Shown piece by piece: positions 7,376 to 60,777 of a stretch of 64,000 bases of DNA. The translations under genes and the position numbers were made by a program. The notes under the pieces are model-generated. The model did not search any database and had not been told where the DNA came from. It worked only from the letters and a program-made list of their open reading frames with translations. Numbering within the stretch: the first letter of the stretch is position 1; every line of letters starts with the position of its first letter. The DNA is from Cytobacillus massiliigabonensis (lineage in GTDB: Bacteria; Bacillota; Bacilli; Bacillales; Cytobacillaceae): the NCBI RefSeq assembly GCF_900199725.1, contig NZ_LT904904.1:1703932-1767931 (forward strand), given 5' to 3'.

Positions 7376-7740
7376 GTTGCCCTTAATCGTCTTTATTGAG
7401 TGCAAAAATGGGGGAGAATGGTCGAAATTGTCCTCAATCGCCTTTATTGAGTCTAAAAGCAGAGAAAAAACCGGGGGAATTGTCCTCAATCACCCTTATT
7501 GGGTACAAAAAACAGAGAAGAAAGACAAAAATTGTCCTCAATCACCTTCATTGGGTACAAAAAGCAGAGAAAAAAGACCAATATTGTCCTCAATCACCCT
7601 CATTGGGTACAAAAAACAGAGAAGAAAGACCAAAATTGTCCTCAATCACCTTTATTGAGTCCAAAAAGCAGAGAAAAAACGGGGGAATTGTCCTTAATCA
7701 CCCTCGAAAAATGGGGGAAAAGGGGCAAAATTTTCCTCCA
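7376..7740. repeat. 52-bp tandem repeat array, about seven units
   Basis: The word ATTGTCCT(C/T)AATC recurs with starts at 7427, 7479, 7531, 7583, 7635 and 7687, exactly 52 bases apart each time, with a degenerate unit before them (from about 7376). Each unit reads ATTG-N4-CAAT-N7-ATTG, then GGGTACAAAAA and an A/G-rich part (AGAGAARAAAG). Two units carry GGGGGA in place of the A-rich end. The period is not a multiple of three and all three forward frames are open through it, so the long ORFs here are an effect of the repeat. It lies upstream of yqkD and downstream of the 43-aa gene. Confidence 0.9.
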
Positions 7741-17587: not shown

Positions 17588-18481
17588 ATGGAGGACAATC
17601 TGAAAGATTTCATACATTATTTAATAGTGGAAAAAGGGCTGGCGAAAAATACAATCGTTTCTTACGAGAGAGATCTGAAAAGCTATATAAAGTATTTGAA
17701 GAAAGTTGAAGCAATATCGGCAATGAATGATGTCCAGCGCGTTCAAATCATTCATTTTCTGAAGAACTTGAAAGAACAGGGGAAATCATCTAAAACTTTG
17801 GCAAGGCATATTGCTTCTATTAGAGCCTTTCATCAATTTCTTTTAAGGGAGAAAGCTGTAGACCAAGACCCCTCTGTACATATTGAATCCCCTCAGCATG
17901 AACGATCACTGCCAAAGGTATTAAATATGCAAGAGGTGGAAACATTGTTAGATTCACCGAAGGCTCATGATCATTATGGACTTCGTGATAAAGCGATGCT
18001 TGAATTATTATATGCAACTGGAATCAGGGTTAGCGAATTAATCGGTTTGAAGATTGGAGATGTCCATTTGACAATGGGGTTTGTCCGTTGCTTTGGCAAG
18101 GGCAATAAAGAACGAATCATTCCAATTGGAAAAACAGCTGCTCGGGCACTTGAACAGTATCTTCAAGAAGGAAGAAGCCACTTTGTTTCAAAGAAACAAA
18201 AAGATGAATCCATCTTTTTAAATCATCATGGCCGTGGGCTATCTAGACAAGGCTTCTGGAAAATTCTCAAACGGCTTGCTGCTGAAGCAGGCATTGAAAA
18301 GGAATTAACTCCGCATACGCTCAGGCATTCTTTTGCAACCCATCTTCTTGAGAATGGGGCTGATTTACGTGCAGTACAAGAAATGCTTGGTCATGCAGAT
18401 ATATCAACAACACAAATTTATACACATGTAACTAAAACTAGATTGAAAGATGTATATAGTCAATATCATCCTCGAGCATAA
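17588..18481 (+). CDS. xerD: site-specific tyrosine recombinase XerD
   Basis: A 297-residue recombinase (B. subtilis RipX), the expected length. The N-terminal SAM-like core-binding domain is followed by the catalytic domain with all key residues: Arg in ATGIRVSEL, His-x-Leu-Arg in HTLRHSF, His in LGHADI, and the Tyr nucleophile in TTQIYTH. With CodV/XerC it resolves chromosome dimers at dif. It follows yqzK by 8 bp. An intergenic repeat starts two bases after the stop. Confidence 0.93.
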
Positions 18482-18483
18482 CG

Positions 18484-18635
18484 AAAAAGCGGAAGCGCCT
18501 TCGGAACAATCAAAGTTCAGATTGTTCCTGCGATGTGCCGCTGTCGAAGCTTTCCTTGTCCAGTTGCATTGTCGACCCTAGTAGGTCCTGTACGTCGGGG
18601 GGGGAGGCGCTGTAGCTAGACAGTTCTCTAAATTC
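18484..18635 (+). repeat. intergenic repeat, type III
   Basis: Begins GAAAAAGCGGAAGCGCC and ends GGCGCTGTAGCTAGACA, the same ends as the other repeats in this window. The core has a hairpin GGAACAATC-AAAGTTCA-GATTGTTCC, then TGTCGAAGCTTTCCTTGTCC. A second, mosaic copy on the other strand is at 22495-22784. Confidence 0.8.
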
Positions 18636-18671
18636 AAAGTTGCCATGAAAAATGGCAGCTTTTTCTTTCAT

Positions 18672-18716
18672 TTGTTAAAGATATTAGGTAAAATATAGAT
18701 GTCAGACTTCCGACAT
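18672..18716 (+). promoter_or_regulatory. deoB-punA-pdp promoter with operator-like dyad
   Basis: TTGTTA, 16 bases, TATAGA gives a sigma-A promoter. The dyad ATGTC-N8-GACAT at 18699-18716 overlaps the -10 end and start point, where a repressor of GntR type could bind. The leader from here to deoB is nearly 400 bases and carries two hairpin-forming repeats. No other promoter is evident nearer to deoB. Confidence 0.45.
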
Positions 18717-18796
18717 ATAGAAATGGAAAAAATGTGATAAAGGTGTTTATAAAGGGTAACCTAATTTATATTTACAAATGTAACCGTATTCAGTAA

Positions 18797-18915
18797 GAAA
18801 AGCGCAGACGGCTCGTTCACCCCGACAAGCATAAGACGAACTGGTTGGAAGGTTGTTCTTTAACCTTTAGCCAGTTGGGCTTATGACCTCGAGGGGGTAG
18901 ACGCCGGAGCTAGAC
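18797..18915 (+). repeat. intergenic repeat, type I, copy a
   Basis: GAAAAGCG at the left end, GCTAGAC at the right. The core folds as CATAAG ... AACTGG ... AAGGTT-loop-AACCTT ... CCAGTT ... CTTATG, followed by CCTCGAG. It is in tandem with copy b. Confidence 0.85.
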
Positions 18916-18920
18916 AAACA

Positions 18921-19050
18921 GAAAAGCGGAGGCGGCTTGCCCAGGGGCGACAAGCATAAGACGAATCGGCAGGAAGGCTGCTCTTTAGCCTTCTTGACGA
19001 TTTGGCTTATGTCCTCGAGCCCCTAGCCGGTCGAAGCTAGACAATTCTCT
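18921..19050 (+). repeat. intergenic repeat, type I, copy b
   Basis: Same ends as copy a. Inner stem AAGGCT/AGCCTT replaces AAGGTT/AACCTT of copy a, a compensatory change. Right flank GCTAGACAATTCTCTAACTC continues to AAAGTTATAAATT, also found at the copy near 51.7 kb. It ends about 50 bp before deoB. Confidence 0.85.
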
Positions 19051-19097
19051 AACTCTAAAGTTATAAATTTTTATTCACTTTAAAAGGAGGAGTTTAA

Positions 19098-20282
19098 ATG
19101 ACTTCACATGCATATAAAAGAGTTTTCGTCGTTGTAATGGATTCAGTTGGAATCGGTGAAGCACCGGATGCCGAAATATTCGGGGACAAGGGAGCCGATA
19201 CGCTTGGTCATATTGCCGAAAAAATGAACGGCTTAAAGATGCCGAACATGGGTAAGCTTGGACTTAGCAATATTCGTGAAATTAAAGGTATTGAAAAGGC
19301 AAAGAACCCGCTCGCTTTCTACACGAAAATGAAGGAAGCATCAAATGGAAAAGATACGATGACTGGTCATTGGGAGATTATGGGGCTAAATATTCAAACA
19401 CCTTTTCAAGTTTTCCCTGAAGGCTTTCCGCAAGAATTAATTGCTGAGCTAGAGTCACGCACTGGCAGAAAGGTAATTGGCAATAAACCTGCCAGCGGAA
19501 CGGAAATTCTCGTCGAACTTGGGGAAGAACATATGAAGACCGGTGCACTTATTGTCTATACATCGGCTGATTCCGTTCTTCAAATTGCAGCGCATGAAGA
19601 AGTTATCCCATTAGATGAACAATATAAAATTTGTCAGATCGCTAGAGAACTTACACTGGACGAGAAATATATGGTTGGGCGTGTAATCGCTAGACCATTT
19701 ATAGGCGAGCCGGGAGACTTTCAGCGAACATCTAATCGTCATGATTATGCCTTAAAGCCTTTTGATCGTACAGTAATGTCAGAAATGAAGGATGCGGGGC
19801 TTGATGTTATAGCCATCGGAAAAATTTCCGATATCTTTGATGGTGAAGGCGTTACAAAGTCTCTTCGAACTGTTTCAAATATGGATGGGATGGATAAATT
19901 ACTGCAATCATTTGATATGGACTTTACCGGTCTAAGCTTTTTGAATTTAGTAGATTTTGATGCATTATATGGTCACCGCAGGGATCCTGAAGGCTACGGA
20001 AAAGCGCTTGAAGAATATGACGCACGTTTGCCGGAAGTGTTTGAAAAGATGCAAGATGGAGATTTGCTCATAATTACTGCTGACCATGGGAATGACCCGA
20101 TTCATCATGGAACAGACCATACAAGAGAATACGTACCGCTTCTTGTATATACAAAAAATAATGAAAATGGCAAAGAGCTTACGATTCGGGAAACATTTGC
20201 AGACATTGGTGCAACAGTTGCAGAAAACTTTCACGTTAAAATGCCTGCTTATGGAAAGAGTTTTTTACAGGAATTGAAATAG
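19098..20282 (+). CDS. deoB: phosphopentomutase DeoB
   Basis: A 394-residue phosphopentomutase that interconverts (deoxy)ribose 1- and 5-phosphate in nucleoside salvage. It has the alkaline phosphatase-like metal-binding pattern: [14 protein letters not shown] near residue 14, DTMTGHWE near residue 95, and ITADHGNDP with HTREYVPLL near residues 330-350. Its partners punA and pdp follow directly. AAGGAGGAG precedes the ATG. Confidence 0.94.
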
Positions 20283-22494: not shown

Positions 22495-22784
22495 TGCCTA
22501 GCGCAATCAGCCTACCCTCGAGGTACTAGTGTCGACAATGCGACAGGACAAGGAAAGCTTCGACAGCGGCACATCGCACGACTAAAAGTGAAGCTATTAG
22601 GAGGACGTCGCGTTATTGCCGACCTCGATTTCCCAAGCCAATCCTGCTGCAAAAGGGAATGAACACCTTTCTGTGAGGCTCGTCTTGTGCTTGTTGAGGG
22701 TGAGCATTAAGGAAAGCTTCCAAGGGCATCTTCGCAGGAACAATCGGCACTTTGATTGTTCTGAAGGCGCTTCTGCTTTTCTAT
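22495..22784 (-). repeat. mosaic intergenic repeat (type III split by type I-like DNA)
   Basis: On the minus strand the right part matches type III (GGAACAATC/GATTGTTC hairpin, then GGCGCTTCTGCTTTT at the end), and the left part repeats the type III segment GTCGACAATGC to GACAGCGGCACATCGC. Between them lie about 140 bases including AAGCCAATCC and GCTCGTCTTGTGCTTGT, which are type I words. The short ORFs over it are not coding. Confidence 0.7.
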
Positions 22785-24060: not shown

Positions 24061-24202
24061 GGCGCTTCCGCTTTCTATGTCCAGCTGCAGGCGCCTACCC
24101 CCTCGAGGTCACAAGCCAATCCGACAAGAAGGTTAAAGAACAACCTCCATGCCGGCTCGTCTTGTGCTTGTCGCCGATAAGCGGGCGCCTTCCGCTTTTC
24201 TA
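24061..24202 (-). repeat. intergenic repeat, type I, copy d (with an upstream end remnant)
   Basis: Minus-strand type I element, 24079-24202, preceded at 24061-24077 by the terminal word GGCGCTTCCGCTTTCTA of another copy. Its outer stem reads CACAAG/CTTGTG where other copies have CATAAG/CTTATG. It starts within ten bases of the dacF stop. Confidence 0.85.
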
Positions 24203-24325
24203 TGTCCAGCTGCAGGCGCCATCGGCTCGAGGTCACAAGCCAATCCGACAAGGAGGTTAAAGAACAACCTCCATGCCGGCTCGTCTTGTGCTTGTCGCCG
24301 ATAAGCGGGCGCCTTCCGCTTTTCT
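24203..24325 (-). repeat. intergenic repeat, type I, copy e
   Basis: Tandem duplicate of copy d with a 124-base period. The two differ at only a few positions (ACCCCCTCGAG versus ATCGGCTCGAG, AGAAGG versus AGGAGG), so the duplication is recent. Confidence 0.88.
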
Positions 24326-32765: not shown

Positions 32766-32936
32766 AGAGTTGTCTAGCTTCAGCGCCTATCAAACTTCGG
32801 GTCTTCCTCCGCAACGATTGCGTCAGCATCGGTTCGCTTTCGCTCACCGTGTTCACTTTACCGAAAGGAAGAGCGCTCCAGTTTGTACGGCGATGAACAA
32901 GGCGCAGTCGCATTTCTAATATTTTTCTATTGGAAC
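32766..32936 (-). repeat. intergenic repeat, type II
   Basis: Starts (plus strand) AGTTGTCTAGCTTCAGCGCC, contains CGCAACGATTGCGTCAGCATC and CGGTTCGCTTTCGCTCACCG, and ends GTTTGTACGGCGATGAACAA GGCGC. Same terminal words as types I and III. It lies upstream of scpA. Right end is degenerate (GCAGTCGCATTTCTA). Confidence 0.8.
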
Positions 32937-45542: not shown

Positions 45543-45705
45543 GAAAAGCGAAAGCGCCTTGTTCATCGCCGTACAAACTGGAAGGACCGCGAATGAGATA
45601 AAGGAAACACGGAGAGCGATAGCGATTCGATGTTGACGCAATCGTTGCGGAGGGGACCTGAAATTTGGTAGGCGATAGGTCGCTTGCGCTAGACAATTCT
45701 CATCT
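45543..45705 (+). repeat. intergenic repeat, type II
   Basis: GAAAAGCGAAAGCGCC at the left, then TCATCGCCGTACAAACTGG, GAAACACGG, GTTGACGCAATCGTTGCGG, and a right end GCGCTAGACAATTCTC. It has the same orientation as resE and lies 44 bp after its stop. Confidence 0.85.
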
Positions 45706-51513: not shown

Positions 51514-51633
51514 GAAAAGCGGAGGCGACTGATCAGCCCCGACAAGCATAAGGCGAGCTGGATGGAAGGTTGTTCTTTAACCTTCTAGCCAGATCGACTT
51601 ATGACCTCGAGGGGCTAGGAGCCGCAGCTAGAC
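51514..51633 (+). repeat. intergenic repeat, type I, copy f
   Basis: GAAAAGCGGAGGCG to GCAGCTAGAC. Core hairpin CATAAG ... GCTGG ... AAGGTT-loop-AACCTT ... CCAG ... CTTATG. Directly follows ribU. Confidence 0.88.
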
Positions 51634-51700
51634 GATAAAAAGCAACGGCCTGCACCGTTGCTTTTTACTATTAATAGTATCAGAATTTATAACTTTGGAG

Positions 51701-51830
51701 TTAGAGAATTGTCTAGCTATGGCGCTAGGGGCTCGAGGTCATAAGCAAACTCATCAAGAAGGCTAAAGAGCAGCCTTCTTGACAATTCATCTTATGCTTT
51801 TCGCCCCTGGGCAAGCCGCCCCCGCATTTC
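51701..51830 (-). repeat. intergenic repeat, type I, copy g
   Basis: Minus-strand copy. Inner stem TCAAGAAGGCT / AGCCTTCTTGA is a perfect 11-base pairing. The right-end flank (TTATAACTTTGGAGTTAGAG in plus-strand order, 51689-51708) is nearly the same as that of copy b at 19.04 kb. Confidence 0.88.
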
Positions 51831-51835
51831 GGATT

Positions 51836-51990
51836 TTCTAGCGCAAGCGTCCTATTGCCTATCAAACTTCAGGTCCCCTCCGCAACGATTGCGTCAACAT
51901 CGGTTCGCTTTCGCTCACCGTGTTTCCTTTATCGAAAGAACCGGCCCTTCTGCGTTTGTACGGCGATGACCATGGTGCTTCCACTTTTCT
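51836..51990 (-). repeat. intergenic repeat, type II, adjoining copy g
   Basis: Minus-strand type II element with CGCAACGATTGCGTCAACATC, CGGTTCGCTTTCGCTCACCG and GTTTGTACGGCGATGACCA. It abuts the type I copy, so two kinds lie end to end. Its outer ends are somewhat worn. Confidence 0.82.
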
Positions 51991-60618: not shown

Positions 60619-60777
60619 AGAGAATTGTCTAGCTCCAGCGCCTATCGCCTATCAAACTTCAGGCCCCCTCCCTACGATAAGTCAACATCGGTTCGCTGTC
60701 GCTCACCGTGTTTCCTATATCTCAGTCGCTGCCCTTCCAGTTTGTACGGCGATGACCAAGGCGCTTCCGCTTTTCTA
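60619..60777 (-). repeat. intergenic repeat, type II, full copy
   Basis: AGAGAATTGTCTAGCTCCAG to CAAGGCGCTTCCGCTTTTCT on the plus strand, with CGGTTCGCTGTCGCTCACCG and GTTTGTACGGCGATGACC inside. Best-preserved ends of the type II copies. Confidence 0.88.

Follow-up and report, generated by a model that had tools for sequence, protein, structure and literature searches.

We show here that the arms of a hairpin repeat in the genome of Cytobacillus massiliigabonensis truly covary over evolution, and that this repeat behaves as an insertion element, with species differing in whether a given, exactly defined site holds a copy. Selection probably acts on the fold, because the covariation beats a tree-aware null and is accompanied by a strand bias that copying from arm to arm alone would not give. 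On balance we lean slightly towards the view that the repeat is a non-autonomous, modular insertion element whose hairpin is recognised in trans when it spreads, and that this recognition selects the fold.

Within the window, the whole stretch of 64,000 nucleotides that was analysed, positions 18797-19043 consist of two head-to-tail type I hairpin repeat units of about 122 nt each, located between the ORFs 17588-18481 and 19098-20282 (presumably xerD-like and deoB-like, respectively). Unit 1 (18797-18916, plus strand, covariance model score 113.1 bits) carries a CCCC/GGGG stem variant and unit 2 (18921-19043, plus strand, 137.8 bits) a GGGG/CCCC variant. The pair is preceded by the 5-nt left flank AGTAA (18792-18796, plus strand), the presumed target, a flank that is A-rich at -5, -4 and -1 genome-wide, and the two units are joined by the 5-nt linker AAACA (18916-18920, plus strand), which shares the last base of unit 1. 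Unit 2 is followed by the tail ATTCTCTAACTCTAAAGTTATAAATTTTTATTCACT (19044-19079, plus strand), the probable right end of the insertion at this deoB-upstream site. Related tails are found behind other copies, and the tail region matches 51679-51718 over 40 nt with 93% identity. Each copy consists of a constant head GAAAAGCGGAAGCGCC, followed by a hairpin body and then by a tail segment GGCGCTGCAGCTAGAC, also constant, which pairs with the head; an AT-rich tail is optional. Constant head and tail enclose a type I, a type II or a third body, i.e. the ends are constant and the interior is interchangeable.

Further type I units lie at 24078-24200, 24203-24324 and 51710-51830 (all minus strand) and at 51514-51634 (plus strand). 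The first, with a 5' arm TCGG, a 3' arm GGGG and one stem mispaired, is apparently a chimaera of two stem variants; the second has a TCGG/CCGA stem. The unit at 51710-51830 belongs to a composite of a type II element, a type I unit and a tail, and the one at 51514-51634 adjoins a terminator-like hairpin at a site that is empty in the closest relative found (G014). Type II elements, with the ends of type I and a different body, are located at 51836-51989, 32771-32916 and 60626-60775 (minus strand) and at 45543-45695 (plus strand). The third body type, again with the same ends (AAAAGCGGAAGCGCC..GGCGCTGTAGCTAGACA), stands directly behind the gene 17588-18481 (18484-18622, plus strand), and a composite at 22524-22781 (minus strand) combines ends that match this third type (18485-18583) with a type I core (22624-22696). 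In the type I alignment, columns 29-34 and 92-98 form a conserved internal loop GACAAG/ACCTCGA that could contain tandem G.A pairs. The window also holds a tandem repeat with a 52-bp period (ATTGTCCTCAATCACC.., 7427-7731), which is apparently longer in G014.

A covariance model built from 20 copies (cut-off E<=0.001) has at least 130 matches in the C. massiliigabonensis genome, a lower bound because 150 candidates were scored; 110 matches exceed 60 bits. Among relatives, 58 of 61 genomes match (own genome included). In a sample of 250 drawn evenly from the class, 26 match, of which 14 belong to the own order (own genome included) and 12 to one other family. Matches also occur around deoB in 17 of 80 named loci, which include records of Cytobacillus eiseniae, Neobacillus drentensis, Fredinandcohnia onubensis, Anaerobacillus alkalilacustris and Parageobacillus caldoxylosilyticus; the best deoB relative shows 91% identity. 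With one unit as query, a single match was found in 72,556 plasmid records (a 690-kb Cytobacillus record) and none in 50,697 phage records. Along the chromosome contig C8, the matches listed are closely spaced as far as about 1.87 Mb, and 8 of them lie further on. If the replication switch is taken to be near 1.95 Mb, as gene strands suggest by eye, 35 of 53 blocks are on the presumed lagging strand. Runs of N inside element arrays at four places, with similar units on either side (between C7:464184 and 465416, C8:760637 and 765131, C6:464519 and 466700, and C8:1471919 and 1475509), are probably assembly gaps.

The original prediction had named paired segments that change together between copies, and these changes are real. 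CATAAG/CTTATG becomes CACAAG/CTTGTG in both units at 24.1-24.3 kb (pair 37-89), AAGGTT/AACCTT becomes AAGGCT/AGCCTT at 19.0 and 51.7 kb (pair 58-68), and the inner arm TCAAGAAGGCT/AGCCTTCTTGA is indeed perfect in 51710-51830, there called copy g. Because the two units at 24 kb share 99% identity over 100 nt, they are counted as one event. Six units in one window are thin evidence for covariation, a gap that the genome-wide test fills. The largest change had escaped the earlier description: a 4-bp stem (columns 24-27 with 100-103) reads GGGG/CCCC, CCCC/GGGG, GCCC/GGGC or TCGG/CCGA depending on the copy, other variants occur too, and the two sides are complementary nearly always. In a set of 20 copies that were gathered on sequence similarity alone, pairing is seen in 96.7% of 638 cells compared to 87.7% after shuffling. 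Double changes occur in 12 of 32 pairs of this set (shuffled mean 8.0, 1 of 500 shuffles as high) and in 58 cells (19.6 shuffled, 0 of 500 as high), and the latter number falls to 19-20 when the partner is slid by one column; of the five measures, one shows no excess, namely how many further pair types occur (21 vs 21.1 shuffled).

The check that had been suggested, a covariance model and a covariation test on copies collected genome-wide, gave significant covariation. For 193 unique copies, 9 of 7140 column pairs reach E<0.05 against the tree-aware null, all of them in helix register, in a test whose single-tree assumption is broken by recombination between copies; 16 pairs reach E<1. With the 98 copies of the own genome alone, E<0.05 is reached by 5 pairs. 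An internal-loop pair, 33-95 (A-T in 149 copies, G-C in 24), leans towards covariation in the larger set without being significant (E 0.68). The own set derives from the 130 matches by removal of 20 below 60 bits and two with N, which left 108 aligned copies, and then of those below 75 bits and duplicates; the other 95 copies come from other genomes and include solely matches of about 60 bits or more. Most copies were collected by the covariance model, which favours paired ones, while the set of 20 was collected by sequence alone. The 193 copies were aligned by sequence only and compared with 300 null alignments, using our own script, which follows the logic of R-scape and combines a FastTree tree and Fitch reconstruction with the re-placement of substitutions at random columns. 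The type II family shows a similar pattern in a plain count, with double changes at 14 of 29 predicted pairs among 21 copies.

It is the GAAAAGCG strand that folds. Where a column is paired, G.T on this strand arises from C>T or A>G, whereas A.C, which is G.T on the other strand, arises from G>A or T>C. The 98 own copies have G.T in 193 and A.C in 55 of 3581 cells, a ratio of 3.5 compared to 1.58 after shuffling (maximum 1.73), with most of the G.T excess coming from three pairs. When changes are counted on the tree of the 193 copies, 154 lead from a pair to G.T and 88 to A.C (p 2.6e-5), and the bias persists without the three G.T-rich pairs (126 vs 85, p 0.006). Unpaired columns have no such bias (C>T 95 and A>G 112; G>A 115 and T>C 96). 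Predicted folding energies point to the same strand: 89 of 98 copies have the lower energy on the plus strand (mean -52.6 vs -46.2 kcal/mol), part of the difference being given by shuffled copies as well (-2.3 vs -6.4 observed). G.T also forms in DNA, and therefore the bias names the strand and not the molecule.

Complementary arms can in principle be maintained without selection. Quasipalindrome correction is template switching between the arms of a hairpin, and together with gene conversion among copies it might keep the arms complementary as a mutational artefact. The chimaeric stem in 24078-24200 would fit such a process, as would bodies that differ between species at one site and the 236 changes from one Watson-Crick pair to another on single branches. 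However, such a process would be expected to affect both strands equally, and G.T is in excess over A.C. An A.G mismatch (41-85, 130 of 192 copies) and a G.T pair (43-83, 50 of 98) persist uncorrected, the loops remain conserved, and arm copying does not account for flips such as GGGG/CCCC to CCCC/GGGG. We therefore regard the artefact as distinctly unlikely to account for the covariation.

Insertion is indicated by a comparison of orthologous places. At the deoB-upstream site, C. massiliigabonensis and G014 are 90% identical over 802 bases, and both are filled at the same junction between GTATTCAGTAA and GAAAAGCG, the former with the type I pair and the latter with a type II element; the downstream tails are related. 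These are the two filled sites among the 30 species read; in the other 28 no recognisable element was seen by eye. One locus (L151) has other extra sequence at this position, and several species have short elements further upstream. A second intergenic site, between genes that we take to be dacF-like and spoIIAA-like, holds different elements in C. massiliigabonensis and G014; among the 23 species listed, L189 has a remnant and 20 have none by eye. The alignment of the two genomes is interrupted again and again over about 140 kb of synteny, with element sequence, partly degenerate, at many of the interruptions. In a clean case, C. massiliigabonensis has TATTAA, a type II element and again TATTAA directly behind a stop codon, and G014 has no element. 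The absence of a copy in a relative can also be a deletion.

The left flank is an A-rich pentamer with a sharp edge: in 81 blocks, A is found at -5 in 55, at -4 in 53 and at -1 in 51, and at -6 in 18. A bulk permutation test for duplicated flanks was not significant (6-mers in 7 of 81 blocks vs 4.1 permuted), and target duplication therefore rests on the single cases TATTAA, CTATTA and CAATAA. In arrays, another head follows 41 of 86 units. Of the 41 linkers, measured after GAC, 23 have a length of 5 nt and 13 of 3 nt (36 of 41 together), and linkers are slightly more similar to the left flank than permuted linkers are (p 0.03, 23 pairs). By eye, the extreme ends, GAAAAGCGG.. and ..GACA or ..CACT, form no terminal inverted repeat, i.e. 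pairing is subterminal. We considered but rejected rolling-circle products with an incomplete last unit as the origin of the arrays, because several apparent half heads belong to other-bodied or internally deleted elements. In a subfamily on contig C8 (79458, 318977, 1267843, 1563692 and 2572450) the copies continue with CAGACAACCTGTCACAAAGTTATCCACA or close variants, and three of the five contain exactly TTATCCACA, which we take to be the DnaA-box consensus.

Position relative to genes bears on the question whether each copy is kept in place as an RNA element, i.e. whether hairpins transcribed in untranslated regions act on the stability, processing or termination of mRNAs, with every copy selected as RNA. 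Gene calls were mechanical ORFs, and 7 of 88 blocks were left out for a missing neighbour on one side. In 22 of 34 sense cases the head lies 0-8 nt behind the stop codon, as would suit such a role, and antisense tails do so in 0 of 51 cases. Compared to intergenic AAWWA pentamers, of which 82 of 1091 (7.5%) lie 0-8 nt behind a stop codon, the 22 of 81 blocks amount to a 3.6-fold excess. A role as resident RNA would also fit the conserved loop and internal loop sequence and the G.T-tolerant strand. Over the whole tree the G.T:A.C bias is found on internal (54:28) as well as on terminal branches (100:60), the latter again in keeping with such a role. In B. cereus, presence of bcr3 in a transcript correlates with mRNA half-life, according to the accessible part of that report (PMC3446304). 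Against this explanation, 39 of 61 blocks between co-oriented genes are antisense, and at neither of the two sites that were read do further species share the element with C. massiliigabonensis and G014. Moreover, on terminal branches of own copies between co-oriented genes, changes from a pair to G.T and to A.C number 6:8 in sense (29 copies) and 28:21 in antisense orientation (44 copies), and the two do not differ in what is a weak test with small numbers (Fisher p 0.38). Sense and antisense being alike, within these small numbers, nothing favours selection in the local transcript, and we consider it unlikely that the repeat is an RNA element kept in place.

A hairpin on one strand, the lack of a terminal inverted repeat and an AT-rich flank are reminiscent of REP/REPIN or IS200/IS605-like elements, which would be moved as single-stranded DNA by an HUH (Y1) transposase. 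The Y1_Tnp domain (PF01797) is present in 23 of 36 genomes of the genus; however, it was found neither in the own genome (0 hits) nor in G014, both of which are rich in copies. We examined 32 Y1 loci, part of those listed, 12 of them IS200-like and 20 other; the labels IS200-like and RAYT-like are our assumption from size and copy number. Two of the 12 IS200-like loci fetched from relatives have an element nearby (L328 and L337), and in L328, from the relative G009, two type I units (2091-2402) lie close behind an IS200-like insertion sequence. The ends of nine near-identical G009 copies of this insertion sequence are, however, unlike those of the element, and the other 8 of the 9 have no element in the fetched stretch. 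None of the 20 other Y1 loci has a model match, and one has a loose head-like motif. With PF01797 not found in the own genome and a copy near few of the fetched loci, an HUH transposase was rejected as mobiliser, and movement by such an enzyme appears highly improbable.

A reverse transcriptase was rejected as mobiliser too, because RVT_1 (PF00078) was not found in the own genome and G014, though it may have had a role in the past. PF00078 is present in 26 of 36 genomes, including the copy-poor G016, G015 and G007. An autonomous long copy with the same ends was not recognised in 164 kb of the own genome and 147 kb of G014 (311 kb), nor was any element-like pair of head and tail that encloses a gene. 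Two longer head-to-tail spacings (680 and about 1431 nt), found in both genomes at seemingly orthologous places, are taken as chance motifs.

We return to a non-autonomous insertion element as the reading that we slightly favour. While a source copy spreads, an enzyme acting in trans would recognise the hairpin that the GAAAAGCG strand forms, be it RNA or single-stranded DNA, and it would be this recognition that selects the fold. Resident copies would drift afterwards, whichever their orientation; the terminal-branch bias of the whole tree fits poorly with free drift and calls for caution here. Copies just behind stop codons would be transcribed together with the gene and, as a by-product, may influence mRNA 3' ends. 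The original prediction had proposed that the fold is selected, either as RNA or as single-stranded DNA used in transposition. Selection of the fold gains support from tree-aware covariation and strand bias, an RNA acting in place receives no positive support from the sense and antisense counts, and movement of single-stranded DNA by an HUH transposase is not supported, as Y1_Tnp was found neither in the own genome nor in G014 and few of the Y1 loci fetched have an element nearby. A bolder view, which we regard as very unlikely, is that of a self-folding mobile family in two families of the class that would need no HUH transposase to spread via its folded strand and might use an RNA intermediate, as a bacterial counterpart of SINEs, or a new single-strand recombinase, with bodies exchangeable between constant ends.

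The repeat occurs in dozens to more than 100 copies per genome, intergenic in many Bacillaceae and often directly behind stop codons. It can confuse RNA-seq, assembly and ncRNA annotation. Combining covariation, strand asymmetry and a comparison of sense and antisense copies offers a way to ask whether a fold is selected in the resident RNA or in a spreading mobile form. Rfam gave no match to the repeat over the window, where the only hit lies elsewhere (an FMN riboswitch, RF00050, 50553-50758, plus strand, 110.8 bits), and with a relaxed threshold over 18400-19100 all hits were far below gathering scores. Literature searches, which covered mostly papers outside subscription, found no description of the repeat, and a search by short sequence words returned no title on Bacillaceae among the matches listed.

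Several known systems are similar in part. REP/REPIN-RAYT systems are likewise extragenic hairpins in high copy. REPs are given as 20-40 bp in the accessible text (PMC3733652), whereas the present repeat is longer and Y1_Tnp was not found in its own genome. With MITEs such as RUP and Correia it shares short length, non-coding nature, high copy number, structure and AT-rich insertion sites, but here terminal inverted repeats were not seen, a parent element was not found and the bulk test for duplication was not significant. In kind, the repeat may best be likened to BOX and bcr elements, by description and with no homology to either claimed. BOX elements of S. pneumoniae and S. suis (boxA-boxB-boxC) are, in the part of the report available, intergenic and of high copy number, with an interior module that varies in number and kind and end modules that form the rest of the predicted structure (PMC3049150). 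The same text states that in 36 of 58 overlaps with a CDS they lie at its extreme 3' end and provide the stop codon, and that their terminal inverted repeats resemble those of ISSpn2 (PMC3049150). Both BOX and the present repeat are modular, intergenic and of high copy number, with constant ends around an interchangeable interior. Compared by description, the two differ in hosts and in the terminal inverted repeats, present in BOX and not seen here; in addition, whole units form arrays here, with linkers mostly of 5 or 3 nt, and covariation was tested. The bcr1-bcr18 repeats of the Bacillus cereus group are described in the accessible text as 100-400 bp long and mostly chromosomal, with up to 130 intact copies of bcr1, an AT-rich motif TTTAT and, for some, conserved structure and transcription (PMC6542083, PMC3446304). 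They are reported there as specific to the B. cereus group (PMC6542083), whereas the present repeat, compared by description, spans other genera of Bacillaceae and a second family of the class.
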